Shown: positions 29,921 to 62,084 of the stretch, piece after piece
Layout: each line of letters begins with the position of its first letter
How positions within the stretch are numbered: the first letter of the stretch is position 1
IMG/VR virus record: IMGVR_UViG_3300008952_000012
Location: 62,001 to 126,000 of that record
Length of the DNA: 64,000 bases
Origin: a virus
Strand: one strand, 5' to 3'
Position numbers and translations under genes: made by a program
The notes under the pieces: generated by a model
Seen by the model: the letters and a program-made list of their open reading frames with translations, nothing else
Told to the model about the DNA's origin: nothing
Databases searched by the model: none

Positions 29921-29930
29921 TGCTTATACC
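29921..29930 (-). promoter_or_regulatory. Candidate leftward promoter motif in divergent region
   Basis: Minus-strand reading GGTATAAGCA, preceded by TTTTT. It lies 46 bases upstream of ATG 29874. On the plus strand the same bases could also serve as a -10 (TATACC), 17 bases after TTGAGT and 30 bases before the rightward start at 29961. A shared or overlapping divergent promoter is possible. Confidence 0.5.
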
Positions 29931-31686: not shown

Positions 31687-33708
31687 ATGGCGTATGGAAA
31701 TGACCGGTCGGGACGACACACTCTCGGGAGCAGATCTCGCGCAAAAACAATTGGGCGTCCCGAGTCTTTTTACCCCAGCCCATTCTTTGACGTAGCGCAG
31801 AATTATCTACCAAAGACCATCAAAGAGACCTTTGACTGGTGCCTGTACTACCAACTAACAAACCCACTCATCAGCGCCGTTACTAGCAAGCTGGCAACTT
31901 ACCCAATCACTGACCTTATCTATGAGGATGACAATGAGGGTTTGGTTGAAATGTATCGGGACATGTTCGAGGGGCAGTTTTTGCTTCGGCAGTTCCTCAT
32001 CGAAACAAACCTAGACAGGTACACTTACGGAAACGCTTTTGTGTCCGTCTCGTTCCCGTTCAAAAAGACCCTTAAGTGTAAGCACTGCAGCGCTACAAAG
32101 CCTGCCAAGGATATCAAGTACAAATGGAAGAACTTTAGATTCCACATCACGTGCGACAGTTGCCTCCAGAGCGGCGTAGCCGAGGTCAAGGACGAACACA
32201 TAAAGTCCGCTAAGCAGATCAGGCTTATTCGTTGGAACCCTAAGAGTATTACCGTAAAATACAACGAAGTAACTGGAGCTAGTCAGTACTACTATTCGAT
32301 GCCAAGGCACATGCGTAACGACATTATGCTTGGCAAGCCTTCAATGGTTGAGACCATCCCACAGGTTTTCATAGAGGCGCTCAGGAAAAAGAAGTCGATC
32401 CTCTTAGAAAGCTCCAAACTGTTCCACTGCAAGAGAGCCGCGATTTCCCGTGACCCGTCCGATAGTGGGTGGGGTGCTCCACTAATCCTTCCTGTTTTGA
32501 AAGACATATTTTTCTTGCAGGTTCTCAGAAAAGCACAAGAAGCCGTTGCCCTTGAGCATATTGTCCCCATGAGGGTGATGTTTCCCCAGGTAACCACTGA
32601 CGGAAACAACCCCTACGCCCACGTCAATCTCCAGGACTGGCAGAACGAGGTTGTGGGTCAGATAAAAAAATGGCGGATGGACAATAACCACATACCGGTT
32701 ATGCCCGTTCCTGTTGGCTATCAAATGATTGGTGGGCAGGGGAAGTCGCTCCTTCTCCATCAAGAACTGCGCGTATATAACGACCAAATAATTGCTGGCA
32801 TGGGCGTCCCCACCGGGTTTTTCTATGGTGAGCAGCAGTACTCTGGCGCATCCGTCAACATGCGGGCGCTTGAAAATGAGTTTCTCGGGAACCGTCAGGA
32901 CATGCTCAGGCTTGTAGAGTTTGTAAGAGATCGTGTCTGCGCGTTCTTAGACATGCCGAAAATGACGCTGAAGTTTAAGCCGTTCAAGATGGCTGACGAT
33001 ATTCAGAGAGCGTCGTTCGACATGAATTTGGCCAACGCCGGGATGATTAGTAGGCGCAGCTTCTTGGAGTCTCGTGACTTTAACTTTGACACTGAGCAGG
33101 AGCTTATTCACGAAGAAGGCAAGAAGCTCAATAGAGCCCAACGAGAAGGTATGATTTCCAACGCCGAGTCTCAGGGCGAAGCGATGCTTATCAATACCCG
33201 ATACCAAATCCAGTCCCAAGAGCTTCAAATGGAAGCCCAGCAGCAGCAACAGGCCAGCGGGCTGATGCCACCACAGCAACCCGGCCAACCCGGCCAACAG
33301 GCTGGCCCGCCGCCAGGACCGCCTCAGGAGGGGGCTCCCCCGGAAGCAGCGCAGCAACCGGGGCAAGAGGGTGGTGCCCCGCCGCCCGAGCAGCAACAGG
33401 CAAGCGGTCAGCCGCCGCCTGAGCAAGGGGCACCACTTCCCCCAGAAGCGGGTGTAGACCAAAGCCCTGTCGGCGCAGGAAACACCGGGCAGATGGTTGA
33501 CCTGTTTGCGCAAGCCAAGCGGCTTACGGCGCAGATAAAGAAAATGGCGGAAGTAGATAGATACCGGGCGCTGGCACAGTTACGTGCCAGCAATCCCGAT
33601 ATCTATATGCTTGTAAACAACGCTCTATCTGGTGCTGGCATAAAGACCATGCAGCAGTTACCCGAAAAGCTTCCTCCTAGGGCAAACCCAGACAGGGCAC
33701 AAATTTAG
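31687..33708 (+). CDS. Portal protein with zinc-ribbon insertion and PQ-rich tail
   Basis: 673 residues, ATG 31687 after GGGAG. The core (residues ~30-510) fits a tailed-phage portal: YYQLTNPLISAVTSKLATYP early, a long helical middle, and PTGFFYGEQQYSGASVNMRA, typical of the region before the crown helix. A CxxC/CxxC pair (Cys131, Cys134, Cys156, Cys159) is inserted in the wing region and probably binds zinc. Residues ~510-615 are a Pro/Gln-rich linker, followed by a short helical C-terminus. The portal forms the 12-subunit DNA gate of the head. Capsid, protease and terminase genes lie in the same block. Confidence 0.88.
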   Translation: MAYGNDRSGRHTLGSRSRAKTIGRPESFYPSPFFDVAQNYLPKTIKETFDWCLYYQLTNPLISAVTSKLATYPITDLIYEDDNEGLVEMYRDMFEGQFLLRQFLIETNLDRYTYGNAFVSVSFPFKKTLKCKHCSATKPAKDIKYKWKNFRFHITCDSCLQSGVAEVKDEHIKSAKQIRLIRWNPKSITVKYNEVTGASQYYYSMPRHMRNDIMLGKPSMVETIPQVFIEALRKKKSILLESSKLFHCKRAAISRDPSDSGWGAPLILPVLKDIFFLQVLRKAQEAVALEHIVPMRVMFPQVTTDGNNPYAHVNLQDWQNEVVGQIKKWRMDNNHIPVMPVPVGYQMIGGQGKSLLLHQELRVYNDQIIAGMGVPTGFFYGEQQYSGASVNMRALENEFLGNRQDMLRLVEFVRDRVCAFLDMPKMTLKFKPFKMADDIQRASFDMNLANAGMISRRSFLESRDFNFDTEQELIHEEGKKLNRAQREGMISNAESQGEAMLINTRYQIQSQELQMEAQQQQQASGLMPPQQPGQPGQQAGPPPGPPQEGAPPEAAQQPGQEGGAPPPEQQQASGQPPPEQGAPLPPEAGVDQSPVGAGNTGQMVDLFAQAKRLTAQIKKMAEVDRYRALAQLRASNPDIYMLVNNALSGAGIKTMQQLPEKLPPRANPDRAQI

Positions 33709-33939
33709 CTATGTATTTTGAGTTGCTATCAGTATTGCGGACATCTCGTTGCATCTATCGCACCTACCTCTCTGGTAGAACGATGAAGGATGGTCCTCTT
33801 GTTTGATACAACGAGAACATACCCACGCAACGCAACCTGTATTCTCAATGAAGTGAATACATTCGCCGCAGTTTCTGGGTTCGTTACACCAGATCCCAGC
33901 AACATCACAGGCAATGGCTTTTGGTGCGCGGGTACTCAT
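33709..33939 (-). CDS. Cysteine-rich small zinc-binding protein, antisense to block
   Basis: 76 residues, ATG 33939, weak AGGTAG site. Nine cysteines, several paired (CGEC, CSRC, CDRC), suggest two small zinc knuckles. It runs leftward between the rightward portal and polymerase genes, its stop lying one base past the portal stop. It appears to form a two-gene unit with the 39-residue gene upstream. Function unknown. Reality is supported by the ordered cysteine pairs and by the lack of any good rightward gene in this 445-base gap. Confidence 0.65.
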   Translation of the reverse strand: MSTRAPKAIACDVAGIWCNEPRNCGECIHFIENTGCVAWVCSRCIKQEDHPSSFYQRGRCDRCNEMSAILIATQNT

Positions 33940-33951
33940 TTAGTTAACTAC

Positions 33952-34071
33952 CTAGTTGCAGGGTACGAGTGCGCCATTAACGGCGTTCGCAAACTCCGCG
34001 CACGTACTCAAGTAAACGGTTTTCGTCACAGTTCTTGTGTAAATCCTACTAAGATTTTGTACAAGTTTCAT
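33952..34071 (-). CDS. 39-residue peptide upstream of Cys-rich gene
   Basis: ATG 34071 follows AAAGGAG at good spacing; stop TAG at 33952-33954. The product begins MKLVQNLSRIYTRTVTK and ends GALVPCN, with two cysteines. It lies 39 bases downstream of a candidate promoter and just before the Cys-rich gene. No known family. The strong ribosome site and promoter make it more credible than its length alone would. Confidence 0.55.
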   Translation of the reverse strand: MKLVQNLSRIYTRTVTKTVYLSTCAEFANAVNGALVPCN

Positions 34072-34110
34072 ATCGCTTCTCCTTTTTGTTTAGGGCAGTA
34101 TTACCCATAA

Positions 34111-34120
34111 TTCTTATACC
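34111..34120 (-). promoter_or_regulatory. Candidate leftward promoter motif
   Basis: Minus-strand reading GGTATAAGAA, preceded by CGTATTA, 39 bases upstream of the start at 34071. It sits in the short divergent gap between the leftward mini-operon and the rightward RNA polymerase gene (start 34154). Confidence 0.5.
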
Positions 34121-34153: not shown

Positions 34154-37100
34154 ATGTCTAATATTCTAGATCCCCAGAGGGTGATGCAAGCCCTCGAAGA
34201 CGGGACCGTAGAGCAAATAAGTAGCTTCTTCCCACTGGAAGGTAAGAAGCATGCCTTGGTCGCGAACAAGATCTACTCGGGCGGGGAAGTAGATTTAGAT
34301 GATATTGCAAGCCAGAAGAATGCGAGACTCCGTGGCCGGACATGGGCACAGGGGCTGTATGGCGATTTCACCCTTGTTAACAAGGAAACCGGCAAGCCGG
34401 TTGACTCTGTAAAAAGGCTTAAAATAGCCAGCCTCCCTAAGATCACTAGGCGATACAGTTACATTGTTGATGGGACCGAGTACCAAGTAGACAACCAGTG
34501 GAGACTTAAGTCTGGCGTCTACACGAGAAGAAAGGCCAACGGGGAGCTTGAAAGCCAATTCAATCTAGCTGAGGGGCGCGGGTTCCGAATGGGCTTTGAC
34601 CCAGCTAAGCGGCGATTCCTGGTTACCTACGGGTCCTCTAACGTGCAGCTTCTCCCAGTCCTTCAAGCCCTAGGCGTTTCAGACGAGAAGATTAGAAGCG
34701 TTTGGGGAGACACGCTGTACTCCAGAAGTATGGCGGATAAAAAGCGCGGGGAGGTCGTGAAGCTCGCAAAGGTTCTCTCGCGGGGCGCGACCCCGGCTAA
34801 CGATTCTGAGGCGGCAGAGATTGTTAAAGCCTCTTACGGGGAAACCAAACTCCTCCCGGACACTACTAAGATAACGCTGGGAACATCGTTTTCAGCGGTT
34901 ACGGGTGACGCGCTGCTTGCGACATCATCTAAATTATTAGGTGTTAATAAGGGCGAGCAGGAAGTCGATAACCGCGATTCGTTACGCTTCAAGGAACTTT
35001 GGTCGATCAATGACCACATCCCAGAACGAATTCAAAACTCACAGCGAAGAATTAAGTACAAGCTGGGCAATAACATCGATAGGAAAGACAGCGTCCGATC
35101 CATTATTACGTCTGACATCTTTAACATACCCATTAAGACTTTTTTCACGTCTACGAGCCTTTCGCAGCAGACATCGCAAGTAAACCCAGTAGACATGATG
35201 GGCGGGTTCCTTAGGACCACCATTATGGGACAGGGTGGGATTATGAGCGAGAACGCTGTGTCTGAAGACGCTAAGCTCATTGACTCCAGCTACCTTGGGT
35301 TCATAGACCCCGTACATACCCCAGAAGGAAAAAGGTCTGGGATAAGCGGTCACTTAGCTTTGGGTGTGGAGAAGCACGGCACAACCCCTAAGATTCAGGT
35401 ATACGATGTTGCGGCAAAGAAGTTTGCCTCCAAGAGCCCGGGCGAGCTTGTGGGGAAGGCCGTAGCTTTCCCTGATCAGTATTCTTTTTCCGGCAAGGCC
35501 CCAAAAGCTCTTGAGGACATGATCACCGTCGTAAAAAAAGACGGTGGTGACCCGGAGAAGGTTCTCCCTTCTGAGGTTGATTTCATAGTCAAAACGCCCA
35601 AGCAGTTATTCTCCATAACTTCTAATCTTGTCCCGTTTCTACCGTCTGATCAAGCTAACCGCGCAGGGATGGCCACAAGACACCTTGAGCAAGCCATCTC
35701 CCTCAAAGACCGGGAAGAGCCACTGGTTCAGGTTACGTCTGGAAATCCCAGTGAGAAGTACGGCACCTGGGAAAAGATCGTGGGGTCCTTCACCAGCCAC
35801 ACAAGCCGCGTTTCCGGTACGGTGGAGACCGTTGGGAAGAACAAAGTTGTCATCAAGGCCGCCAACGGGGAAAAGCATGTGGTGCCCCTTTATGAGAACT
35901 TCCCCCTCAACGATAAAAAGGCATTCATATCGAGCACCCCAACTGTGGCCAAGGGCGACAAGGTAAAGGTCGGCCAATCCGTAGCCGACACTAACTTCAC
36001 GAAGAACGGGACCCTAGCCATGGGCACAAATCTTCGTGTTGGGTATCTTCCGTATAAAGGGCTGGTTTTCGAGGACGGTATCGTAATCAGCGAAGGCGCT
36101 TCCAAGAAGCTGACCAGCGAGCATCTCCACAAGAATAGGGCATATGTAGAGAAGTCTATGGCCGTGGGCCTAAAGAAGTTTAGAGCGAACTTCCCGGGAT
36201 ACGTGACTGAAGAGAACGCCACAAAGCTTGACGAGGACGGGGTTATTAAAAAAGGTCAAAAAGTTGACCCCGGCGACGTATTAATGACGGTTTTACAGAA
36301 AACCGAGCCGTCAAAAGAGCAGATACTTCTTAAAGGCATCCATAAGTCACTCATAAGGCCGTACAAGAACAAGTCCGTTACGTGGGACAAACCGTATACT
36401 GGTGTTGTCACTGACGTGGTTCGTAATGGTCGGGAGATCGTTGCCTACGTCAAGACAGAAGAGTCTGCTGACGTTGGGGATAAGCTTACCGGTAGGCACG
36501 GCAATAAGGGCGTTATTACGGCGGTGATACCGGACGAGGAGATGCCTAAAGATGCCGAGGGCAACCCCATTCAACTTATTCTCAACCCCTCCGGTGTCCC
36601 AGGAAGGATCAACCTCGGGCAGGTTTTGGAGACCAGTCTCGGGAAAGTCGCTAAAAAGCGCGGAGAGCCCTATGCCGTTGAAAATTTCCAAGCTAACGAC
36701 GGTAAGAAGATTGTTACCGTACGCGAGCATAAACGTAAGATTAAGACTACCGGCGGGGACACTAAAGAGATCACGGTTAAAGAGCATAAGCGTGAGCTTG
36801 GGTACCAGGAAAGAGTTAAACAGATTCTATCTGAAGAGGGTGTCTCTGAAACGACTGAACTGTTTGACCCTGAGACCGGTAAGAGTTTGGGGGAGGTGTT
36901 GGTTGGGCAACACTACACGCTGAAACTCATGCATCAGGTCGATAAGAAGCTCAGATCCCGGGCTCACGGCTACGGCCACGACTACGATGCTAACTTGGTG
37001 CCAAAGGGCGGAGGCACGTCAGGGGCTGCCCAGAGATTCGGTGAGCTAGGCCTGTATGCGATGCTTGCCCACGGCGCGACATCGAATATTCGAGAGGCGC

Positions 37101-40100
37101 TAACGTATAAAAGCGATAAGGCGCAAGACGAGGTCTGGACAGCTATTCAGACCGGATCGATTCTCCCCGCCCCAAAACCCTCCTTTGCGTACGAAAAATT
37201 CCTTGCTTACATGCAGGCCCTAGGCCTCAACGTAGAGAAGGAGGGTAACGGTTTAATTGTTAGCCCCCTTACGGATAAGCAGATCCGATCTGCCTCGAAC
37301 GGAGAGATAAAGGACGGGAGTAAAGTAATCCGTGGAAAGGATTTAAAGCCTGAAAAGGACGGATTGTTTGACGAGACCATCACTGGCGGACCCGGGGGTA
37401 AGCACTGGTCTCACATCGCACTAGGGATGACCATCCCAAACCCGATGTTCGAAAAGTCAATTCGATCCCTTCTCGGAATAACCGGCAAAGAGTACGACAG
37501 CGTCGTAGCTGGCACGCACGGGTTTAATGAGAACCGTGAAATCGTTCCCGCTGGCGAGGGGGTAGCCTCCGGCCCAGAAGGCTTAGCCAAGGCTCTCGGG
37601 GGCGTGAACGTAGACAAGGATCTCGCAAGTGCGAAAACGGATATCAAAACAGCGAGAAGAAACAACCTCGATAAGCTCAACAAGAAAATTAAATATCTGT
37701 TGATGCTGAAGAAGAACGACCTGTCCCCAGAGGAGGCGTTCACTACATCCGCTGTGCCGGTCTTACCACCAGTATTCAGGCCAATTACAGCCATGGAGGG
37801 CGGTGACCTGAATATTGACGGCACAAACATGCTTTATCGGGACATCGCAATACTTAACCAGAAGGTGAAGGAATCAGCCGGAGTTCTTCCGGACGAGGCC
37901 ATTGCGGCTCTCCGTGGCGACTTGTACGACGCAGTTGATGCGCTGATGGGAGTATCATCACCGTCCGAGTCGGCCACCACAATGGACGGGCAGACGCGAC
38001 CTCCCGGCATTCTTACCATTCTTTCCGGAAGGCAGTCTCCCAAGCAGAGCTTCTTCCACAAGAGGATTCTGGACAGGAAACAAGACATCACCATGCGTTC
38101 GGTGATTGTCCCAAATATGGATCTTCATCTTGACGAGATTGGCTTACCCAAGAAGGGGGCCATGAAGATTTATAGACCGTTCGTGGTCAAAGAGCTTGTC
38201 CGAATGGGGTACACGCCACTTAAGGCCCGTGAGGAGATCGAGAAGAAATCACCTCTGGCCGACAGAGCATTAGAGGTTGCTGTCACTAAGAGGCCAGTGT
38301 TCTTTAAGCGCGACCCGGTGCTTCACAAGTTTGGGATAATGGCATTCAAGCCACGGCTTCATAACGAATCCTCTATCCACATTCACCCGCTTGTTACCGG
38401 CGGTTTCAACGCTGACTTTGACGGTGACACTATGGCGGTGTTTCTTCCGGTTTCCCAGGAGTCTATTGACGAGGCTTACAAACTCCTCCCATCAAAGAAC
38501 CTGTTTAATCCGGCCACCGGGAAAGTTATGTATCAGCCCACGCTTGAGGGTCAGCTAGGGCTGTACCTACTCACGCAAATGGGTAAAAAAACGAACAAAG
38601 CTTTTGGGAGTGACAAGGAAGCAATAGAGGCGGCTAAGTCAGGAAAAACCTCGATGACCGATGTTGTTTCGGTCGGGGGAGTAAAGACAACTGCAGGGAG
38701 ATTACTGTTTAATAACTCACTTCCTAAGAAGGTTAGATCAAACGATATCCTCTCAAACCCCGACATGGTCATGGGCAAGAAAAATCTGCAGAGCGTTCTC
38801 CGGGACGTTGCAACCAAAACCCCGGCTGAGTTCCAGGTGGCTGCGGACAAGATTAAGGACCTGGGGTTTGGTCATGCCTACAACATCGGGTTCTCTTTTG
38901 CTTTGGGGGACTTTGACGCCCTTAGAGACATGCGCACCAAGGCGATGAAGGCAGCAAAAGTTAAAGAAGCCGTAATCCGCAAGCAAGAGCGCATGAAGAT
39001 GATCTCCTCGGAGGCGGCTGATAAGAAGGTCGTAGACCTGTACACGGCAGTGACCCAAGACATGTCCTCAGAGGCAAAGAAGGTCTTGGACAAGAAGGAC
39101 AACAAGCTGAGGCTCATGGAAAAAGCTGGCGTTAAACCGGCGTGGGCCCAATTGCAGCAGATGCTAATCGGACCAATGCTGCTCGAAAACGCCAAAGGGA
39201 GGGTCATACCGGTACCGGTGGATCGGTCCTATTCAGAGGGCTTACGGTCTTCAGACTACTGGGTTGCGTCTTCCGGGGCGCGAAAAGGGCTTATCGAAAA
39301 AGTACAGTCCGTGCAAAAGCCCGGAGCGCTTAACAAGCAGTTGGCCAATACGATGATGTCCTATGTCATAACCGAAAATGACTGTGGAACGACAAAGGGC
39401 ATCGCTTTAGATGCGGCAGACTCTGATCTTGTTGATCGGTTCACAGCCAAGCCCTTAAGCGCGAAGGGGCTCAAGATTTCAGCGAACACGGCGCTTACAC
39501 CAGCGCTGGTCTCTAAGATCAAGAGCGCGAAGGTGTCTAAGATAGTCGTTAAGTCGCCGCTGAAATGTGAATCCAAGAAAGGTCTTTGCTCAAAGTGTTA
39601 CGGAATACAGAGCAACGGACTTCCGATCTCAAAGGGGACAAACATTGGGATTATCGCTGGCACCGCTCTGGGGGAGCGCGGGACGCAGCTTTCAATGAAA
39701 ACGTTCCACACCGGAGGGGTAGCAGGATCTTCCGGCGGGGTGGTCGGCGGAATCGACAGGATCAGCCAGTTGCTGAAGATGCCAGCTACGCTACCCAACG
39801 CTGCTGTTTTGTCACCGGTGTCGGCTACGGTGTCCAGTATCAAAGAGAGCCCCGTTGGCGGTTACGACCTAACAATCGGGAGCGAGGACATTTACGTCCC
39901 AGCCGGTAGAACCTTGAGTATATCCAAGGGGTCAAAGGTCAAAAAGGGGCAGAAGATCTCTAGCGGAATTATCGACCCTAGAGATCTGCTTGAGAAAACG
40001 AACGTAGACACAGTCCAGGCGTACATCGCGGACGAAATAAATAAGGTGTACAAAACAGAGGGGATAAAGCGGCGAAACATAGAGGTGGTAACTAAGGCGA

Positions 40101-40423
40101 TCACCAACCTTGGGAGAGTCGTTAATCCTGGTGGATCAGACTTTATTCGCAATGATTATATATCTACGTCTTACGCGAATGCGTTAAACAGGTCTGGGAA
40201 GCTGAAAGAACCCATCGTTGTTGCGCCGACGCTTCGGGGCATAGAAACTCTTCCCCTTGACCAAACAACGGACTGGGTAGCGAGGCTTCAGTATAGAAAA
40301 TTAAAAGAAACCTTTATACGAGCAGCAAACGAGGGCTGGGAATCTGATATCCATGGGGTTCATCCAACGCCCGGAATAGCTTATTCTGCTGAATTCGGGA
40401 AAGGCGAGGAGGGCCCCTACTAA
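34154..40423 (+). CDS. Single-chain RNA polymerase, fused beta and beta-prime
   Basis: 2089 residues, ATG 34154 after GGAGG. Beta-like half: YIVDGTEYQVDN (~100), DPVHTPEG (385-392), GDKLTGRHGNKG (775-786) and MHQVDKKLRSRAHGYG, then AAQRFGELG (~926-975). Beta-prime-like half from ~1080: SHIALGMTIPNPMFEKS, RSVIVP and GLPKKGAM, then catalytic NADFDGD (1419-1425; Asp1421, 1423, 1425 hold Mg). A bridge-helix region (SSGARKGLIEK) follows, then four zinc cysteines (Cys1744, 1805, 1812, 1815) and trigger-loop block GERGTQLSMKTFHTGG. The beta-prime N-terminal zinc ribbon is absent. Total length is well below E. coli beta plus beta-prime. No alpha, omega or sigma gene is in the window. It lies between portal and spike-like genes, suggesting late expression or virion packaging. 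Confidence 0.95.
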   Translation: MSNILDPQRVMQALEDGTVEQISSFFPLEGKKHALVANKIYSGGEVDLDDIASQKNARLRGRTWAQGLYGDFTLVNKETGKPVDSVKRLKIASLPKITRRYSYIVDGTEYQVDNQWRLKSGVYTRRKANGELESQFNLAEGRGFRMGFDPAKRRFLVTYGSSNVQLLPVLQALGVSDEKIRSVWGDTLYSRSMADKKRGEVVKLAKVLSRGATPANDSEAAEIVKASYGETKLLPDTTKITLGTSFSAVTGDALLATSSKLLGVNKGEQEVDNRDSLRFKELWSINDHIPERIQNSQRRIKYKLGNNIDRKDSVRSIITSDIFNIPIKTFFTSTSLSQQTSQVNPVDMMGGFLRTTIMGQGGIMSENAVSEDAKLIDSSYLGFIDPVHTPEGKRSGISGHLALGVEKHGTTPKIQVYDVAAKKFASKSPGELVGKAVAFPDQYSFSGKAPKALEDMITVVKKDGGDPEKVLPSEVDFIVKTPKQLFSITSNLVPFLPSDQANRAGMATRHLEQAISLKDREEPLVQVTSGNPSEKYGTWEKIVGSFTSHTSRVSGTVETVGKNKVVIKAANGEKHVVPLYENFPLNDKKAFISSTPTVAKGDKVKVGQSVADTNFTKNGTLAMGTNLRVGYLPYKGLVFEDGIVISEGASKKLTSEHLHKNRAYVEKSMAVGLKKFRANFPGYVTEENATKLDEDGVIKKGQKVDPGDVLMTVLQKTEPSKEQILLKGIHKSLIRPYKNKSVTWDKPYTGVVTDVVRNGREIVAYVKTEESADVGDKLTGRHGNKGVITAVIPDEEMPKDAEGNPIQLILNPSGVPGRINLGQVLETSLGKVAKKRGEPYAVENFQANDGKKIVTVREHKRKIKTTGGDTKEITVKEHKRELGYQERVKQILSEEGVSETTELFDPETGKSLGEVLVGQHYTLKLMHQVDKKLRSRAHGYGHDYDANLVPKGGGTSGAAQRFGELGLYAMLAHGATSNIREALTYKSDKAQDEVWTAIQTGSILPAPKPSFAYEKFLAYMQALGLNVEKEGNGLIVSPLTDKQIRSASNGEIKDGSKVIRGKDLKPEKDGLFDETITGGPGGKHWSHIALGMTIPNPMFEKSIRSLLGITGKEYDSVVAGTHGFNENREIVPAGEGVASGPEGLAKALGGVNVDKDLASAKTDIKTARRNNLDKLNKKIKYLLMLKKNDLSPEEAFTTSAVPVLPPVFRPITAMEGGDLNIDGTNMLYRDIAILNQKVKESAGVLPDEAIAALRGDLYDAVDALMGVSSPSESATTMDGQTRPPGILTILSGRQSPKQSFFHKRILDRKQDITMRSVIVPNMDLHLDEIGLPKKGAMKIYRPFVVKELVRMGYTPLKAREEIEKKSPLADRALEVAVTKRPVFFKRDPVLHKFGIMAFKPRLHNESSIHIHPLVTGGFNADFDGDTMAVFLPVSQESIDEAYKLLPSKNLFNPATGKVMYQPTLEGQLGLYLLTQMGKKTNKAFGSDKEAIEAAKSGKTSMTDVVSVGGVKTTAGRLLFNNSLPKKVRSNDILSNPDMVMGKKNLQSVLRDVATKTPAEFQVAADKIKDLGFGHAYNIGFSFALGDFDALRDMRTKAMKAAKVKEAVIRKQERMKMISSEAADKKVVDLYTAVTQDMSSEAKKVLDKKDNKLRLMEKAGVKPAWAQLQQMLIGPMLLENAKGRVIPVPVDRSYSEGLRSSDYWVASSGARKGLIEKVQSVQKPGALNKQLANTMMSYVITENDCGTTKGIALDAADSDLVDRFTAKPLSAKGLKISANTALTPALVSKIKSAKVSKIVVKSPLKCESKKGLCSKCYGIQSNGLPISKGTNIGIIAGTALGERGTQLSMKTFHTGGVAGSSGGVVGGIDRISQLLKMPATLPNAAVLSPVSATVSSIKESPVGGYDLTIGSEDIYVPAGRTLSISKGSKVKKGQKISSGIIDPRDLLEKTNVDTVQAYIADEINKVYKTEGIKRRNIEVVTKAITNLGRVVNPGGSDFIRNDYISTSYANALNRSGKLKEPIVVAPTLRGIETLPLDQTTDWVARLQYRKLKETFIRAANEGWESDIHGVHPTPGIAYSAEFGKGEEGPY

Positions 40424-41880
40424 TGGGTGACGAACAATTCGAAGATACCTTTGCAAAGACCCCCGACCAATCTGACGGGCCCGCCAGCATACAACTGGCG
40501 CAGATAACTAGTGTGAACGTAAAAGAGTACACGGTGGACGTAATGACCACCTACACTCATAAGCCTCTCGTTGATATTCCGTTTTCCTCGCCTCTCTGCC
40601 ACAGAGACCATCGCGGCGGGATGTACTTTATGCCAGAGGCGGAGGCGTACTGCTACGTATGCGAATGCCAGGACGGCACGGCCTTTGTACTGGGGTTCAT
40701 AACGAACCCGGTAAACGTTACTCCGCAGGAGTTCGATGAGTTGGAAGGCGGCAAGGGGCTAGAGCTTATTGCCGAGGCTGCCGACATTGGACCAAGTTTC
40801 AAAGGGGCCCGCGCCCCAATGGAGCCGGGGGACATTTTCCTGGGTACCATTGATGGCAACAGTGTGGTCGTTAGGCGCGGTGGGATGGTTCAGATTGGGT
40901 CTACCTCTTTAGCCCAAAGGATTTATCTCCCCGTGGAGAACGTGATCAGGGATTATTTTCAGCGCTATCAGGCATATAGCCCAGTGGGGGAGATTGAGTG
41001 GGGGCACGCCATTCTCGTTGAAGGGGAGAAACCAACTCAGCAGGGCGGTTATCTTGCTAAAGAGTATTTGGACGATAATATCCCACCAGAAGTGCTTGAG
41101 GTGGCCGAAGAGACCCCCGTCCTGGTTAAGTACAACATCAAGGATTTGTGCCAAGAGGATGTAACAAAGGGGAAGTACACGGTTGAACTGAGGGTCGGAA
41201 GACTAACGGAAGATCAGCTTGACCCAGAGGAAGACCCAGAACACGTATTCGGGCAGGGTGACCACAAGGCTTCTGATGACGCCCGTGTAAAGAAACCAGT
41301 CAAGGCGGCAGACGGTGATAAGGGAATCTTGGATGAAAAAGACAAAACCAAGGGTGTCCTAAGCTTCACAATCTATCAGCACGATAAAGATACTGATGAT
41401 AAAAAACGTGTCAGGTACGTCTTCCAACTAAGCCGTGATGGGGATAATCTCATCTTTACGCGTGGGAATATACACGTAGAAGTATCCCAAACGGTATATG
41501 CCAATATACGAGAAGGGGCAAAAATCGTATATGGTGATAAAGGTGGAAGCGGAGATTCGAAAGAAAACAAGCAGTCGGTAATTGAGTTATTACAGGATAA
41601 TGACTTTAAGGCGTTCATTAAGAACATGGTTATAGAGTGCATGGAGGGTTACCACCTAATTTCCCCAAAGGAAGTTTATATAGAGGGGGAGGACGTAGTG
41701 CAGCTAGGAAAGAAAAATCAGGGGGGGACCGATCAGCAGGTCGTTTTGCTTGATGATTTAGCTACTTGGCTCACTACAAGCTTTTCCTGCATGACGGCTT
41801 GGGGCCCCAGTGGCCCTGTCATCACTGCGCCGACGCAAGCAGACATCGCTTCTAAAAGCGTTAAGGCCAAAAAGGGGTAA
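40423..41880 (+). CDS. Spike/baseplate-hub-like protein with OB-fold N-terminus
   Basis: 485 residues. ATG 40423 overlaps the polymerase stop by one base. Residues ~25-105 (VNVKEYTVDVMTTYTHKP, then GMYFMPEAEAYCYVCE and TAFVLGFI) have the strand pattern of the gp5/gpV/VgrG OB domain found in contractile-tail spikes. A charged linker (~245-310) leads to a short beta-rich segment (NLIFTRGNIHVEVSQTVYAN) like a spike needle. A membrane-puncturing baseplate component is the best guess. Coupling to the RNA polymerase gene is notable. Confidence 0.65.
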   Translation: MGDEQFEDTFAKTPDQSDGPASIQLAQITSVNVKEYTVDVMTTYTHKPLVDIPFSSPLCHRDHRGGMYFMPEAEAYCYVCECQDGTAFVLGFITNPVNVTPQEFDELEGGKGLELIAEAADIGPSFKGARAPMEPGDIFLGTIDGNSVVVRRGGMVQIGSTSLAQRIYLPVENVIRDYFQRYQAYSPVGEIEWGHAILVEGEKPTQQGGYLAKEYLDDNIPPEVLEVAEETPVLVKYNIKDLCQEDVTKGKYTVELRVGRLTEDQLDPEEDPEHVFGQGDHKASDDARVKKPVKAADGDKGILDEKDKTKGVLSFTIYQHDKDTDDKKRVRYVFQLSRDGDNLIFTRGNIHVEVSQTVYANIREGAKIVYGDKGGSGDSKENKQSVIELLQDNDFKAFIKNMVIECMEGYHLISPKEVYIEGEDVVQLGKKNQGGTDQQVVLLDDLATWLTTSFSCMTAWGPSGPVITAPTQADIASKSVKAKKG

Positions 41881-42470: not shown

Positions 42471-44453
42471 ATGGAACTAATTAGAAAACTGCAAGGCCCT
42501 GTGTTTGAGAAGACCGCCGGTAAGTTCTTGCTTGGTGATAACCCGAACACGTACGCGAGCGAGCTTATCGCCCACCTGTATAAGCAGCACCCATATCTGG
42601 GGCAGTATCAGGTAAACATTTCGATCCAAGGGCAGGACCAGAGCATGGGATTCCTATACGGAGTCTTCTTGGTCAGCCAGTCCTCAGACGTGCCCCCTCC
42701 AGATGGGCAGCAGCAGATGGGGCAGGTCATCAGTCAGGGGCAGCCACAGGCGGACCCGAAGGAAAGTATCCGGGTTCCTATCATTGTGGAGAACAAGAGA
42801 GCGTACTCCTACGACGTTTTCATTACTCCAGACGGTAGATTCTTGCCGCTTAGTGAAGAGAGGATTGCTTCGGCAATGTTTGATTCTTCACCGTATTCAG
42901 CCGCCCCTCCACTTAAAGGCACGGCTGGCGGCCTAAGTTCCCCGTCCTCCCAAAACGTGAATCCGGACATACCAACTGGGGCAATGGGAGGCCCTGGTGG
43001 TGGAGTGTCCATGGACAAAGTGTCCTCCCTGGACTTCATTAGGATTTCAAGCGATAGCGTAAACGGGTTCCTTAACCGTATCGCGACCGACCAGACCCTG
43101 GTTGACGCCGCGTCCATTAACGAAAGTTTCGCTGGCGCTCTTTCTAAGCTCGCATCTGTTGGGCAAAGACCTGAGGATGCGGATGATGAGGTGTCAATTG
43201 ATGACTTTGACGCAGCCGTAATCACCAAGGTGTCCGGCGGGTACAAGGTAAAAACCGCTGTCGCGGAAGGTAATCTTGGAAGCGAGTTCTTCATAGAGAA
43301 CAAGCACGCAGAAACTATCCCAGTTGATTTGCGACAAGCCGTTGTTAAGCACGGATCAGTTTTATTAACCAGTAATACTGAGGAACTTTTGGGGGTTCTG
43401 CCGACATACGGGCTTGAGGCTGCTGAGTCCTCTGGTGTGTATTCGGTAATAAACAAGCACGGAAGCGCTCAGAGGGCCGCAGTTATTACCGATGTAATAT
43501 CTATCGAAGGTAAGCCTCTGGACTTGAGCTTGGTTGTCGGAGAGTCTGGGGCGTCAGTTCAAGAGAAGGTCGCTGGCATCCAGTGTGGAGAGTTGGACTT
43601 TGAAGCCCTTGCCGGTGGAGAACCTTTTGGCGACGGTGTGTTTGTCTTCAAAACTGCGGGGGCTGTCTCTGAGCCTTTGGACATTAAGCACGCAGTCTTT
43701 AGCGGCGACAAGAACCCAGAGTACATTTGCGAGCACCCGCTGCGAGGCCGAGTTACCATTAAAACTGCTAATATTAAAAAGCCACTCCAGGAGACAGACA
43801 CCTCTTTTCTGATCCCAAGCGACACCATCTTCGTGCCGCTTCAGTTTGGCGGTCGTTACGGCTCAGACGAGTACACCGTAGAGAAGATCGCCAGCAGAAA
43901 AGATGCCATCAACAAGGTCAAACTTGTGTCTGATGGATCAGAGTTTTCCTTCTCTGGTAAGCCTGTCGAGCACTTGGAGAAAAACGCTAATATGACAGCG
44001 GAAGAAGCGTTGCTTCGTATCGGGCTCTTGGGTGGAACGCCTGAGGGGGCGTTGATGAAGTTAGCAACCGCTGCTGGAGGCGAGGAGGTTACGTTTGTTC
44101 CAAGCCGAAGAATTATTAACGATCTTCCTGGCAGCGATGCTGATGAGGAGATTACTAGACTGGCGGAGGTTATTCGATTAGACCTCACGAAAGAGGCTGC
44201 TGCCCTCTCAGGGGCAGACACAGTGGATTCAGTATTATCGCTTAATTTTATTACCCCAGAGAATGTTCAGGGGTACATTGATGCACTACCAACTTTTGAG
44301 GAGTCTGCGTCGAAGCTTGCTGAGTTGCTCGTTGGGGTACGGCTCGGCTTATCTGATGTTCCTGAAGCGGCGGTATCCTCCGCTCTTCGAGGATTAGAGC
44401 GTGCGGTCCAAGGACTTAAGAAGCTCCAAATCAGGTCAAATGCGACGATGTAA
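42471..44453 (+). CDS. Large virion protein with repeated Lys-Thr-Ala motifs
   Basis: 660 residues, ATG 42471 after TAGGAG. Acidic, with a Gly/Pro/Ser-rich linker near residues 140-185. It contains EKTA near the N-terminus, three more KTA sites and related KLA/KVA/KIA sites. Beta-rich middle; the C-terminus is helical (SKLAELLVGVRLGLSDV). No enzymatic motif seen. Size and position suggest a structural or ejected internal protein. If KTA sites are cleaved by the prohead protease, this is a prime candidate substrate. Confidence 0.75.
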   Translation: MELIRKLQGPVFEKTAGKFLLGDNPNTYASELIAHLYKQHPYLGQYQVNISIQGQDQSMGFLYGVFLVSQSSDVPPPDGQQQMGQVISQGQPQADPKESIRVPIIVENKRAYSYDVFITPDGRFLPLSEERIASAMFDSSPYSAAPPLKGTAGGLSSPSSQNVNPDIPTGAMGGPGGGVSMDKVSSLDFIRISSDSVNGFLNRIATDQTLVDAASINESFAGALSKLASVGQRPEDADDEVSIDDFDAAVITKVSGGYKVKTAVAEGNLGSEFFIENKHAETIPVDLRQAVVKHGSVLLTSNTEELLGVLPTYGLEAAESSGVYSVINKHGSAQRAAVITDVISIEGKPLDLSLVVGESGASVQEKVAGIQCGELDFEALAGGEPFGDGVFVFKTAGAVSEPLDIKHAVFSGDKNPEYICEHPLRGRVTIKTANIKKPLQETDTSFLIPSDTIFVPLQFGGRYGSDEYTVEKIASRKDAINKVKLVSDGSEFSFSGKPVEHLEKNANMTAEEALLRIGLLGGTPEGALMKLATAAGGEEVTFVPSRRIINDLPGSDADEEITRLAEVIRLDLTKEAAALSGADTVDSVLSLNFITPENVQGYIDALPTFEESASKLAELLVGVRLGLSDVPEAAVSSALRGLERAVQGLKKLQIRSNATM

Positions 44454-46342: not shown

Positions 46343-46948
46343 ATGGATACTAAAGAAAACCAAAAGAAAACGCTTGTCAAAGCGCTTATGAATAAGCTGA
46401 GCGCGATGGAGATGCCGGGGAACCAGATGGGCGGCAAGCCTGCGCCGAACACCGGCTTATTAAAGGCGGACCCCAAGATTCAGGCTGCCGTGGCCGAGGC
46501 CAAAAAGATGAATAAGGGCAATTTGGCGACCGGTATAAAAGCCGTAGCAGCCAAAAACCAAAAACCGGCCAATCCTGGCGGGCCGATGGGCGGCCCACCA
46601 CCAAACGTACAAGCGGCACCGCCTGCCGACGCCACCACGCCCCCACCTCTCCCTGCGCAGCAGCCGCCCAACCAAGTAGCTGCCCCAGTCAAGAAATCAC
46701 CCGTTGCGTTGGCTGCTGGCGCAGCCCAACCTGCCCCGCCGACCGAGGACCAGAGGAAAGAACAGGCCAAAACTGAGCATACGCAAAGAGCCTTGGTTGC
46801 GAACAATTCGGTAGCCCCCGCTCCGCCGCCCCAGGATATGCAGCAGGTTGCACTGAAGAGACAGAAGGCTACTAAGAAGGGCGGGTCTTTTCAGGCGAGA
46901 CTAGACAGGGCTCGCGCCCGGGCTGCTCAAGGCACGGAGACGGCGTAA
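46343..46948 (+). CDS. Disordered Pro/Ala/Gln-rich protein
   Basis: 201 residues, ATG 46343 after GGACGG; its stop overlaps the SNF2-like gene start by one base. Low complexity: Lys-rich ends and a long Pro/Ala tract in the middle (PPPLPAQQPPNQVAAP). No folded domain is evident. It may be a linker, scaffold or packaged internal protein. Coupling to the ATPase suggests they act together. Confidence 0.68.
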   Translation: MDTKENQKKTLVKALMNKLSAMEMPGNQMGGKPAPNTGLLKADPKIQAAVAEAKKMNKGNLATGIKAVAAKNQKPANPGGPMGGPPPNVQAAPPADATTPPPLPAQQPPNQVAAPVKKSPVALAAGAAQPAPPTEDQRKEQAKTEHTQRALVANNSVAPAPPPQDMQQVALKRQKATKKGGSFQARLDRARARAAQGTETA

Positions 46949-48768
46949 TGAGTCTGGGTGACTATCTCCTAAAGTCCGCAGCAGCGGAAAAAACGGAAGG
47001 AAAGAAGCCGCATGGCACCGGCATACCTTCTATGAAGGAGTGGTTCGCCCCATACCCACACCAAAAAAGAGCCATCGATAGGATGTTCGCCAACAAAGGC
47101 AAGATCATCCTTGCCCACGAGATGGGTACAGGTAAAACCGCTGCATCCATCTACGGGTTTGAGCGGCTACGGCATGAAGGAAAAGCGAAAAGAGCGCTAG
47201 TTGTTGTTCCGTCAGGCCTTCGGGCCAACTTCGCTGAAGGCGGCGTACAGAAGTTTACGACAAGCTCTGTACAGGTCATCGGGTCACAATCCGAGGTCTC
47301 TAAAAAATCTGGCTATGTCCGCCCAGGAAACGAAGCCCAGACCGACTACACAATCGTAAGCTACGCCCAGTTCCGTAGAGACCCTGAGGGGTTTATGCAG
47401 AGAACCGGGTCGGACACCCTCATACTCGATGAGTTCCACAAGACAAGAAACGAGAAAGCGGCAACGTTCAAAGCCGCCCTCGCTGCCAGAAGGTACGCAC
47501 ATAACTTCATGGGCCTGACGGCATCATTGATTAACAATAACCCCGGAGAGGTCGCATCACTGATGACCATCTCTGAGAAGAACCGTAGCTTATCCCCCGC
47601 TGAGTTCAGGAAAAGATTTACGAAGACCATCGGATACACCAAGGGGTTTGGTGGCGGATCGAAGAAGATTAAGGGGTACAAAAACGTAGAAGAGCTAAAG
47701 GCTCGGACGCAGCCGAAGATAGATCACGTACGCACGCAGGACCTTAAGGGCAAAACAATGCCTCGGAAAGACGTCCAAAACGTAGACGTGGAGATGTCTC
47801 CCAAGCAGTACCAGCTTTACCAGCTTGCGTTAGATAGGCTTGGTCCGCTCAAGGAGCGTGTGCTCCGAAGCGACCCAAACGTGTCAGTCAGGGAAGCCGA
47901 GTTCCTGTTCGCCCAGATTTCTGCGGCCAGACAGGTTGCTAACTCGATGCACACTGCCAGGAAGGACATTACCCCGAAAAGGTCGGCAAAGATTACCCCC
48001 AAGGTCCACAGACTACTTGAGGACACCCAAAAGCACCTGGGTGAGAAAACCGACAACAAGGTTGTGCTTTACTCGAACCTGATCAGGGGCGGGGTTGACG
48101 TTCTGTCGGCTGGGCTGAAAGATCGCGGCATTGATCATGCAGTGTTCGTCGGAAAAGGCAGAGAGATTGGTGGGAAGAAGATTACTTCCATCCTAAGGCA
48201 GCAGGGTGTTAGCGATTACAAGGAAGGCAAGAAACGGGTTATCGTCCTTAGTGGGGCAGGGGCCGAGGGGCTGGACCTAAAAAACTCTACGGCGTTCTAC
48301 GCCCTAGATGGCCACTTTAACCCACAAAAAGTTCTTCAAGCAGAAGGCAGAGCCAGAAGGCTTGGCGGACAATCCCACAGGCCTGAGACAGAAAGAGCCG
48401 TTGATGTTAGACGCTATCGAAGCACGGTCCCAGAAGAATCTAAGCCTGGGGTTATAGGCAGGTTCTTCGGCAAAAAAACCCCGAAAACCACAGACCAGTG
48501 GATGTCTGATGTGGCCGGGAGAAAGTATAGGGAACAGGAGCAGTTCTATAAGGCTTTCCGGGAGCCGCCGAAACACATTTATAAGTACAGAGATAAGAAC
48601 GGGAGGGTTCGTTATGTTTACCCCAAGAAGCCAAAAGGGCAGAAAAGCAAACCTGGAATTTTCTCCAGACTTTTCTCCAGAAAGCCCTCCATCCCAACTC
48701 CTGAACAAGTTGGGCGTACGACAGGTACCCAGCTTGCGCTTAGCTCAAGACCACCAACGGTGTCTTGA
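46948..48768 (+). CDS. SNF2-type ATPase/helicase in virion block
   Basis: 606 residues, ATG 46948. Motifs: HEMGTGKT (Walker A, 57-64), LILDEFH (158-164), LTASLINNNPGEV in place of LTATP, and QAEGRARRLGGQ (~453-464, motif VI). The order is typical of SNF2/DEAD-like translocases. The N-terminus has KSAAAEKT. The C-terminal ~110 residues are Lys/Arg-rich. SNF2 proteins translocate along duplex DNA and displace bound proteins. Its place among virion genes, away from the replication block, suggests it may be packaged and act on incoming DNA, perhaps with the fused RNA polymerase. Confidence 0.85.
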   Translation: MSLGDYLLKSAAAEKTEGKKPHGTGIPSMKEWFAPYPHQKRAIDRMFANKGKIILAHEMGTGKTAASIYGFERLRHEGKAKRALVVVPSGLRANFAEGGVQKFTTSSVQVIGSQSEVSKKSGYVRPGNEAQTDYTIVSYAQFRRDPEGFMQRTGSDTLILDEFHKTRNEKAATFKAALAARRYAHNFMGLTASLINNNPGEVASLMTISEKNRSLSPAEFRKRFTKTIGYTKGFGGGSKKIKGYKNVEELKARTQPKIDHVRTQDLKGKTMPRKDVQNVDVEMSPKQYQLYQLALDRLGPLKERVLRSDPNVSVREAEFLFAQISAARQVANSMHTARKDITPKRSAKITPKVHRLLEDTQKHLGEKTDNKVVLYSNLIRGGVDVLSAGLKDRGIDHAVFVGKGREIGGKKITSILRQQGVSDYKEGKKRVIVLSGAGAEGLDLKNSTAFYALDGHFNPQKVLQAEGRARRLGGQSHRPETERAVDVRRYRSTVPEESKPGVIGRFFGKKTPKTTDQWMSDVAGRKYREQEQFYKAFREPPKHIYKYRDKNGRVRYVYPKKPKGQKSKPGIFSRLFSRKPSIPTPEQVGRTTGTQLALSSRPPTVS

Positions 48769-49034: not shown

Positions 49035-49127
49035 ATGAGTGTATTCGATAAAATCATTACCGACCGCTCTAGACAACGAGCCCGCAAACTTATGGATGGT
49101 TTCCTTGGCAATGTCGCTCCCGTATGA
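49035..49127 (+). CDS. Possible 30-residue leader overlapping TerL start
   Basis: ATG 49035 opens a frame beginning MSVFDKIITDRSRQRARK that ends at 49127, inside the 5' part of the terminase gene. Basic and protein-like, but with only a weak AGGTG site. It may couple translation into the terminase, whose own start lacks a ribosome site. The 72 bases upstream (48963-49034) are AT-rich with no recognisable promoter. Confidence 0.35.
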   Translation: MSVFDKIITDRSRQRARKLMDGFLGNVAPV

Positions 49128-50739
49128 AATAGCAGAGGATAACCCCGAACGGTCCTCACTGTTCCCTTCAGAATTTGTTGGGTCCTTTTTCAGAATTCCC
49201 TCCTTGGGCGAGCTTGAGCGGTTTTCGTTTAAGGGCAGGCGCTACCTCGTGCCCATATATGACACCCCAGCACAGAGGCTACTGCTTCAGTGTGGTCGTC
49301 AGGTTGAGAAGAGTACAACTCTTGGAAATATTATACTAACATATTCTTTGTTACGTAGGCACTTCAGGTCTCTGTTTGTGAGTCCCACACAGCAGCAGAC
49401 TGAGACATTCTCCCGCGACAGAATCGCCACGCCTACTGAACTATCGGATACTCTGAAAGCATTTACGCGTGGTGATGGGACCAAAGACAACGTGCTTTAC
49501 AAAAAGTACGTAACTGGGTCCGACATCACTCTCCGGTACGCCTTTCTTCATGCTGACCGTGTTCGTGGTATTTCGGCAGATATGCTTCTTCTGGATGAGA
49601 TCCAGGATATTTTGACCGACGTTATCCCTGTTATCGAGGAAGCGCTGTCCCACTCCCCGTTTAAGATACTTAGGTACTCAGGGACGCCCAAGAGTTTAGA
49701 CAATACGATTAGTTACTACTGGAACCAGTTCTCTACCCAGAATGAATGGGTCATCCCGTGCGAGAGATGTAATAAGTGGAACATGATCGGTGAGAACAAC
49801 ATTGGGGACCACGGGCTTATTTGCGAGAAGTGCGGGAAGGGTATCTCGGCTGATCACCCAAAAGCGCGGTGGGCATCCATGCGATCACCGGCGTGGCTAA
49901 GAAATCCGCCGGTCAAGGAGCCATTCGAGGGGTATAGAATACCCCAGGTCATAGCTCCATGGGTTAACTGGGGCGATATTCTTGATAAGCGGAAGCGCTA
50001 TACGAGGGCCCAGTTTTTCAACGAAGTTCTCGGCCTTGGTTATGACTCTGGGGAGAAACCCATAACCAGGGAGTTGCTCATAGATCACTGTTCCAACGAG
50101 CGTAATGACCTTGAAACAGCAGTGAAAATCAGTTCCCGTGGAACCGGGAGTTGCTGCATCGGGATTGACTGGGGGACCGGCGAGAATACGTACACCGTCT
50201 TAACGGTTGGTAAGTACTTCGCTAATAAGTTCAGGTTTATCTATTTTAAACGATTTGAGGGGCCTGAAGCTGAGCCCGAGCCCATGATGAACAAGATCAT
50301 CAACCTTGTGCACACATTTAAGGCGGAGTGTGTTGGGGTTGACTACGGCGGAGGTTTTGACAGGAACGACAAGTTGATACGAACGCTGGGGCTGACACGT
50401 ATCGCAAGATATCAGTATGTAAATACACGACGTATATACTTCGACAAAACGCTCGCACGGTTTATGGTTAATAGGACGGAGGCACTGATGGCGGTCATTA
50501 ATGCCCTCAACCGGAAAGATACATTTCAACTTCCTAGTTGGGAGTCTTTCGAGACACCCTACGCAAGCGACCTTCTTTCAGTATTTACTGAGTACAACGA
50601 GGCACGAAGAACGACTATTGTTAATAAGACACCGGGCACAACGGACGATACATTGCATGCAATGACTTACTGTTTTCTGGCGTCTATGATAAAGCACCCA
50701 AGACCTGATATTATAGCCCCGAGTGGAGACAGAGACTAA
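49096..50739 (+). CDS. terL: Terminase large subunit with zinc-ribbon insertion
   Basis: About 547 residues from ATG 49096. The frame is open to GTG 49039, and ATG 49111 is a third option; none has a clear ribosome site. ATPase: GRQVEKSTTLG (Walker A, 49297 region) and MLLLDEIQDI (Walker B). Between ATPase and nuclease, CERC and CEKC (bases 49759-49836) form a zinc ribbon. RNase H-like nuclease: IGIDWGTGENTYTVLTVG, GVDYGGGFDRND and DDTLHAM supply the metal-binding Asp residues. TerL pumps DNA into the prohead through the portal and cuts concatemers. Confidence 0.93.
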   Translation: MVSLAMSLPYEIAEDNPERSSLFPSEFVGSFFRIPSLGELERFSFKGRRYLVPIYDTPAQRLLLQCGRQVEKSTTLGNIILTYSLLRRHFRSLFVSPTQQQTETFSRDRIATPTELSDTLKAFTRGDGTKDNVLYKKYVTGSDITLRYAFLHADRVRGISADMLLLDEIQDILTDVIPVIEEALSHSPFKILRYSGTPKSLDNTISYYWNQFSTQNEWVIPCERCNKWNMIGENNIGDHGLICEKCGKGISADHPKARWASMRSPAWLRNPPVKEPFEGYRIPQVIAPWVNWGDILDKRKRYTRAQFFNEVLGLGYDSGEKPITRELLIDHCSNERNDLETAVKISSRGTGSCCIGIDWGTGENTYTVLTVGKYFANKFRFIYFKRFEGPEAEPEPMMNKIINLVHTFKAECVGVDYGGGFDRNDKLIRTLGLTRIARYQYVNTRRIYFDKTLARFMVNRTEALMAVINALNRKDTFQLPSWESFETPYASDLLSVFTEYNEARRTTIVNKTPGTTDDTLHAMTYCFLASMIKHPRPDIIAPSGDRD

Positions 50740-61728: not shown

Positions 61729-62084
61729 GCAACCCCTTTGATATTCTCGCCAGTGTAAATGATACCGATGACAACTACGCGGACAGGGTGGAGTTCTTCC
61801 TAAGCTTGAAGGAAAAGGTCGGCGCGTTAAACGTAAAAGCTGTGGCCAAGGATGAGGTAAAAGCTCTTCTAAAGTCTAAGGGAGTCAGTACCGCAAAGCT
61901 TAGAAGCTCTCTTGGCGGGAAGATGAATAAACCAAAAGACATCCCCGGTTATTCGTCTAAGCTTGGTCCGTCGGGAAAACAGGTAAAAGCGCCACCAGTC
62001 GAAAAGTCTAAAGATATAAAAGCACCTAAGAGCGAGACAAAGAAAAAGCTTGTCGAGGCTCTAAAAAGGATGAGCACGAAGTGA
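61725..62084 (+). CDS. Lys-rich small protein, unknown
   Basis: 119 residues from ATG 61725, preceded by GGAGG and overlapping the previous stop; the longer open frame to 61620 is a shadow of the upstream gene. Charged helix (YADRVEFFLSLKEKVGALN), then a Lys-rich C-terminal half. Stop and next start overlap by 4 bases. Virion role inferred from position only. Confidence 0.7.
   Translation: MSNPFDILASVNDTDDNYADRVEFFLSLKEKVGALNVKAVAKDEVKALLKSKGVSTAKLRSSLGGKMNKPKDIPGYSSKLGPSGKQVKAPPVEKSKDIKAPKSETKKKLVEALKRMSTK

Follow-up and report, generated by a model that had tools for sequence, protein, structure and literature searches.

What transcription apparatus does a tailed phage possess when both large subunits of a bacterial-type RNA polymerase (RNAP) lie on one chain? 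The question is raised by an open reading frame (ORF) at 34154-40423 (plus strand) of a 64,000-nucleotide stretch of DNA (the window), positions 62,001 to 126,000 of the 134,529-bp IMG/VR virus record IMGVR_UViG_3300008952_000012. The answer that we consider probable is that the ORF encodes a virion-packaged, sigma-dependent single-chain RNAP that functions without alpha and omega. In a bacterial-type polymerase encoded by the phage, its product would form the catalytic core, beta and beta' being on one chain, and the fusion would plausibly stand in for the assembly role of the alpha dimer. The dedicated partner of this core would be a sigma70-family protein whose gene is on the same contig and which would direct it to promoters of the form GGTATAAG-N5-T-purine, without a -35 element. 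Both proteins would be carried in the virion and delivered along with the DNA, and we propose that transcription could therefore start without the host enzyme.

One reading frame for beta and beta'

The ORF and its parts are as follows.

34154-40423, plus strand: single-chain beta/beta' RNAP of 2089 residues (translation, Pfam/NCBIfam matches, IMG/VR relatives)
34154-37243, plus strand: beta-homologous part, residues 1 to ~1030 (NCBIfam rpoB match, alignment with bacterial beta)
36476-36511, plus strand: GDKLTGRHGNKG, the beta active-site lysine motif, residues 775-786 (alignment)
37238-37270, plus strand: beta-to-beta' junction of ~10 residues, where beta ...ALGLNVEKEGN is joined directly to beta' LTDKQIRSASNGEI
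37271-40420, plus strand: beta'-homologous part, residues ~1040-2089, without zinc ribbon 1 (alignment)
38408-38428, plus strand: NADFDGD, the catalytic Mg motif, residues 1419-1425 (alignment)
39269-39292, plus strand: SSGARKGL, residues 1706-1713, in the bridge-helix region (alignment)
39383-39598, plus strand: zinc-2 cysteines, residues ~1744, 1805, 1812 and 1815 (CX6CX2C spacing)
39671-39718, plus strand: GERGTQLSMKTFHTGG, residues 1840-1855, in the trigger-loop region (alignment)

The initial annotation described a single 2089-residue frame with beta motifs followed by beta' motifs, and both the translation, which has zero internal stops, and the profile matches agree with it. DPVHTPEG and AAQRFGELG are both found in the beta part, the NCBIfam rpoB model (NF001616) matches residues 247-1028 (E 9.4e-125) and the rpoC model (TIGR02386) residues 1124-2068 (E 4.8e-166), and the Rpb1/Rpb2 Pfam domains, including Rpb2_6 (E 1.2e-55), occur in the expected order. 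The scores remain below the NCBIfam equivalog cut-offs (554 vs. 963 bits for rpoC and 418 vs. 896 bits for rpoB), and identity to cellular enzymes is 27-31%; the profile matches and this identity bear out the view of a natural in-frame fusion that keeps cellular similarity. In alignments with Acinetobacter, Staphylococcus, and Bacteroides-type beta' sequences, the chain is collinear with the bacterial subunits, including its C-terminal region. As also stated in that annotation, it is shorter than the bacterial pair (2089 residues, compared with ~2390 for Staphylococcus beta plus beta'), and zinc ribbon 1 of beta' was not found in it, nor in any clade member compared, while the full four-cysteine zinc-2 site, the bridge helix, and the trigger loop are all retained. 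By its conserved NADFDGD and active-site lysine motifs, the predicted product is a two-barrel (multisubunit-type) enzyme, and it is presumably catalytically active. In addition, the rifampicin pocket (within residues ~335-365) carries S, G, and T at positions that we take to be equivalent to E. coli D516, H526, and S531, so that rifampicin resistance is predicted.

A search of IMG/VR gave 75 loci, nearly all of them 37-89% identical to the window enzyme, and 32% identical in the case of locus L050. Of these loci, 66 are full-length (~55 distinct sequences besides the window) and likewise carry a continuous beta-beta' frame, which is ~2060-2220 residues long and reaches 3008 residues where in-frame intein-like inserts are present. 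Compared with close relatives, synonymous differences are saturated (proportion of synonymous sites differing, pS, 0.72-0.91), with pN, its nonsynonymous counterpart, at 0.055-0.21; the junction (residues 1020-1130) likewise combines saturated synonymous sites with low nonsynonymous change, as under purifying selection. Because dozens of independent contigs keep the frame and synonymous sites are saturated, the fusion is no assembly error. That two genes were joined artificially in sequencing or assembly, which the initial annotation had named as what could undo its claim, is thus excluded by the continuous frame and the conserved junction of the relatives, and we assign it a negligible probability. 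That annotation also called the fusion unusual; it is not a one-off, however, as a broad clade of phages has the beta-beta' fusion as its rule.

Several observations on individual relatives may be added. Intein-like inserts of ~340-530 residues with LAGLIDADG matches are found in the RNAP ORFs of L042, L052, L057, L062, and L076, at the beta lysine motif, DPxxTPEG, and NADFDGD, and certain enzymes hold two. The most divergent fused RNAP, that of L050 (7704-14144), has lost the zinc-2 cysteines, and in a single fragmentary relative (L025, 8145-8149) the frame is interrupted by a stop after about residue 302.

Apart from bacterial contaminant records, the RNAP is matched best in the phage collection by Vibrio phages D69, D148, and D181 and Salmonella phage Arash. 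These four isolates share with the window an RNAP (~31% identical) whose beta continues into the N-terminal portion of beta', the sigma family and the promoter-like motif described below, a GpA-type terminase, and an upstream portal; they differ in that the C-terminal part of beta' is a separate gene, the split lying near residue 1503-1513. Arash gp206, the beta-beta'N chain, is annotated merely as "beta" in the records. In D181 (L078, 2959-8473), a homing endonuclease gene splits the beta part, which is unbroken there in D69.

Phylogenies of both halves, which had been suggested as a check, were computed by fast maximum likelihood, the sequences compared being those of 21 bacteria together with further RNAPs of phages, and a full run was made with both halves concatenated. 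The two half-trees agree in separating phage RNAPs from the bacterial ones sampled and in uniting the fusion clade with D69/Arash (approximate likelihood-ratio test support 100 for beta' and 88 for beta), and in both of them Cobetia phage Carin-5, Yersinia phage YerA41, and other separate-gene phages fall outside. In the concatenated tree, the fusion clade, with D69/Arash and L050 inside it, is separated from all else with 100/100 support, and the branching order of L050 and D69/Arash receives just 34.9/65. Because the cellular sequences were all bacterial, we make no claim on the root. All clade members share the beta-beta' fusion, and detachment of the beta' C-terminal part was observed in the D69/Arash lineage only. 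Scans for further relatives of L050 recovered L050 alone; those for D69-type relatives recovered one IMG/VR contig, L299, in which the beta' C-terminal part is also split off.

A sigma70-family companion and a promoter-like motif

Weak Pfam sigma-region matches in relatives led to a conserved protein of ~300 residues, and two copies of an octamer in the window resemble promoters.

G000:C1:34543-35442, same contig, outside the window: sigma70-family protein of ~300 residues (Pfam, PDB profile search, Foldseek)
34113-34120, minus strand: GGTATAAG (AATTATGGG), a candidate promoter of the phage, kept by all close relatives upstream of their RNAP gene and directed toward a small minus-strand ORF
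29923-29930, minus strand: GGTATAAG in the divergent junction that precedes the structural operon, unchanged across 11 relatives

Sigma region 3 is matched in 12/12 members of the family, that of this phage passing the Pfam cut-off (E 3.1e-8), and region 4 in 7/12. A profile of the family searched against the PDB with hmmsearch retrieved sigma factors (best E 7.5e-14), and sigma factors are also the top Foldseek matches of its AlphaFold model. The models of the sigma and of RNAP residues 900-2089 are of modest confidence (pLDDT 69, pTM 0.36-0.38), and their global geometry, including the junction, is unreliable, so the fold matches are to be read as consistent with these assignments. The family occurs in 26 of the 30 fusion-clade records (12 of the 26 built the profile, and the rest, including D69 and Arash, were found with it) and in neither of two split-gene phages, Carin-5 and Rhizobium phage RHph_Y65. 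Because the clade encodes this conserved sigma70-family protein, dependence on a host sigma is unlikely. The Arash member found by the profile is Gp10 (11892-12596). A second, more canonical sigma is encoded by Arash (OQ632216.1, 120656-121693; Gp196) and D69 (OZ195729.1, ~133652), and it may act later or on the host RNAP.

Alpha (PF01193) and omega (PF01192) gave nothing over the cut-off in any record searched, the cellular controls being positive, and an enzyme that needs neither subunit would fit this phage gene content. Alternatively, the fused core could recruit host alpha and omega into a hybrid holoenzyme, and because both of its parts are collinear with the bacterial subunits up to the C-terminal region, the alpha and omega sites could persist. 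However, the jumbo-phage RNAPs described in the literature form no stable complex with host alpha or omega (PMC13282480), and the fusion lessens the need for them; we regard such a hybrid as very improbable.

The octamer is best documented in Arash, where GGTATAAG occurs 31 times (4.8 expected), 30 of these on the minus strand, and 21 of the 30 lie 15-80 nt upstream of minus-strand starts (1.9 expected). Aligned Arash copies show T in 87% at position 13 and a purine in 99% at position 14 (the first G being 0), and no conserved -35 element was found in them, a pattern that fits a -10 element whose transcription start is fixed. With Arash as its only training genome, a matrix run on other genomes gave upstream matches well above expectation in D69 (23 vs. 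2.7), in two further genomes (G005, 7 vs. 0.8; G018, 5 vs. 0.5), and in the window contig (3 vs. 0.4), without enrichment in the controls Carin-5 (3 vs. 1.3) and RHph_Y65 (3 vs. 1.7). The reading of CTTATACC on the plus strand, as a promoter for the RNAP and structural genes, was dropped, since 30 of the 31 Arash copies are on the minus strand, ahead of minus-strand genes. A simple k-mer promoter search in the window contig alone returned Shine-Dalgarno sites only.

Is it the single-chain enzyme that reads this motif? The phage sigma might instead act on the host RNAP, in which case the single-chain enzyme would use a different specificity factor or do without one. Sigmas thought to be host-directed are known from many jumbo phages that lack an RNAP (PMC13282480), and the clamp-helix residues of the phage beta' are unlike those of bacteria. 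However, a tblastn search of 50,697 phage records found the sigma family only in Arash, D69, D148, and D181, which are also the four isolates with an RNAP of this clade, and the sigma is present beside the RNAP in Arash virions according to their published virion table (PMC10585845). Moreover, the motif ends in G (TATAAG), and host-type TATAAT is not enriched upstream of Arash genes. We therefore consider host-directed action improbable, and the single-chain core probably binds this sigma and reads the motif. As a separate observation, TATAAT occurs in the Arash genome (L237-L246) 11 times in 180 kb, compared with 23 expected.

Virion evidence and gene neighborhood

The virion proteomics of Arash published in 2023 provide the evidence for packaging. 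In the published virion table, Gp206 is the top protein with 3516 spectra, compared with 1333 for the major capsid protein, although spectral counts are not molar amounts; Gp216, the detached beta' C-terminal part, has 1210, the sigma Gp10 has 467 with 100% coverage, and the helicase Gp217 is also present (PMC10585845). The second sigma, Gp196, is absent from that table and unnamed in the accessible text, where Gp206 is called "subunit beta" and the fusion is unmentioned (PMC10585845).

The genes around the RNAP gene in the window are the following.

31687-33708, plus strand: portal-like protein, homologue of the Arash gp204 portal and syntenic upstream neighbor
40423-41880, plus strand: gp5-like central spike protein, its start overlapping the RNAP stop
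46948-48768, plus strand: helicase homologous to the Arash virion protein gp217
49039-50739, plus strand: terminase large subunit of the GpA type (PF05876, profile match)

Because an Arash-type portal, a gp5-like spike, and a GpA-type terminase flank the RNAP gene, the genome is that of a tailed phage, as the initial annotation had supposed. The product of 40423-41880 was also considered as a specificity factor and dropped, being a gp5-like spike. Between the portal and RNAP genes lie small minus-strand ORFs at 33709-33939 (76 residues, cysteine-rich) and 33952-34071, and a plus-strand ORF at 33790-34110 is likely spurious, as it was matched in 9 loci only and the minus-strand ORFs overlap it. 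A search with 42471-44453 gave zero matches, and the 2518-residue ORF at 5096-12652 (plus strand) has no PHROG match.

It is conceivable, if unlikely, that the same sigma-dependent enzyme is made after infection for middle or late genes and that its copies in Arash virions are carry-over. The Arash authors themselves point to carry-over, affecting abundant proteins, as another explanation (PMC10585845), and the RNAP gene sits in the structural cluster and could be late-expressed. However, because the Arash RNAP out-counts the capsid protein in spectra, and because just one of the two Arash sigmas is listed in virions, selective packaging is suggested, as far as the published table goes.

Besides carry-over, other points weigh against a virion-packaged, sigma-dependent enzyme. 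Virion presence is known for Arash only, whose RNAP is ~31% identical and has its beta' C-terminal part detached. The Pfam match to sigma region 2 is weak (E 0.07 for this phage), four of the 30 fusion records have no sigma match (three of these four being short fragments), and the divergent clamp-helix residues bear on sigma binding. Furthermore, the motif is strongly supported in Arash and D69 but thinly so in the window contig (3 sites), and the gene starts used for the motif counts came from a simple ORF caller. Overall, the enzyme of the window phage is nevertheless probably packaged together with its sigma.

Comparison with known RNA polymerases

If this proposal is correct, a phage RNAP with a sigma of its own would come close to the simplest possible two-barrel enzyme that depends on sigma, with one core chain and one sigma, and the contributions of alpha, omega, and the first zinc ribbon could be tested directly. 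It would also bear on how sigma functions with a non-cellular core and on whether initiation of the sigma type is older than modern bacteria, and a polymerase of two proteins that has promoters of its own could prove useful as a laboratory tool. The cultured phages Arash and D69 make the system testable now.

RNAP-encoding Caudovirales have been described from metagenomes as mReC, with 97 contigs (Weinheimer and Aylward, 2020; PMC7481178). The beta and beta' of these tailed phages are alignable to cellular RNAPs but fall outside them; those of the fusion clade are likewise alignable and stand apart from all bacteria sampled. A fusion is mentioned there for crAssphage only (PMC7481178). The mReC markers are the major capsid protein PF07068 and the large terminase subunit PF03237 (PMC7481178), whereas none of 23 fusion-clade records gave a PF07068 match and all 22 tested for the GpA-type terminase PF05876 have it. 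Some overlap between the fusion clade and the mReC contigs is possible. The phiKZ/AR9-type enzymes are likewise phage multisubunit RNAPs with a virion form, but they consist of four or five polypeptides without a sigma homologue (PMC7824862, PMC13282480), compared with one chain plus sigma here, and reviews describe RNAP-encoding jumbo phages as lacking alpha, sigma, and omega homologues (PMC7824862, PMC13282480). Their sequence similarity to the window RNAP is weak.

The nearest other phage RNAPs in both half-trees are those of Carin-5, YerA41, and RHph_Y65, which have separate genes, three in the case of YerA41; Carin-5 and RHph_Y65 further differ in the PF07068 capsid that they possess, in the sigma family, which was not found in them, and in the unenriched GGTATAAG. 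Both catalytic barrels also lie on one chain in the crAss-like gp66 and the tape-fused RNAP of P23-45. P23-45 has a virion RNAP (PMC10770324). By their descriptions, these enzymes are very divergent from cellular ones, unlike the window RNAP, which matches the rpoB and rpoC models at E<1e-100.

Natural beta/beta' fusions are also known from bacteria, and their fused rpoBC model PRK09603 is the top NCBIfam match of the ORF. However, this model and PRK14844 are ~2840-2890 residues long, the window score is far below the curated cut-off, and the tree position is outside bacteria. In the open-access PMC literature searched, no description of such a beta-beta' fusion was found outside crAss-like phages. 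Set against these systems, there is about an even chance that the fusion clade holds a complete transcription system not previously described as such, in which a virion-delivered enzyme depends on its own sigma, dispenses with alpha and omega, uses its own -35-less GGTATAAG promoters, and belongs to a widespread clade outside all sampled bacterial RNAPs.

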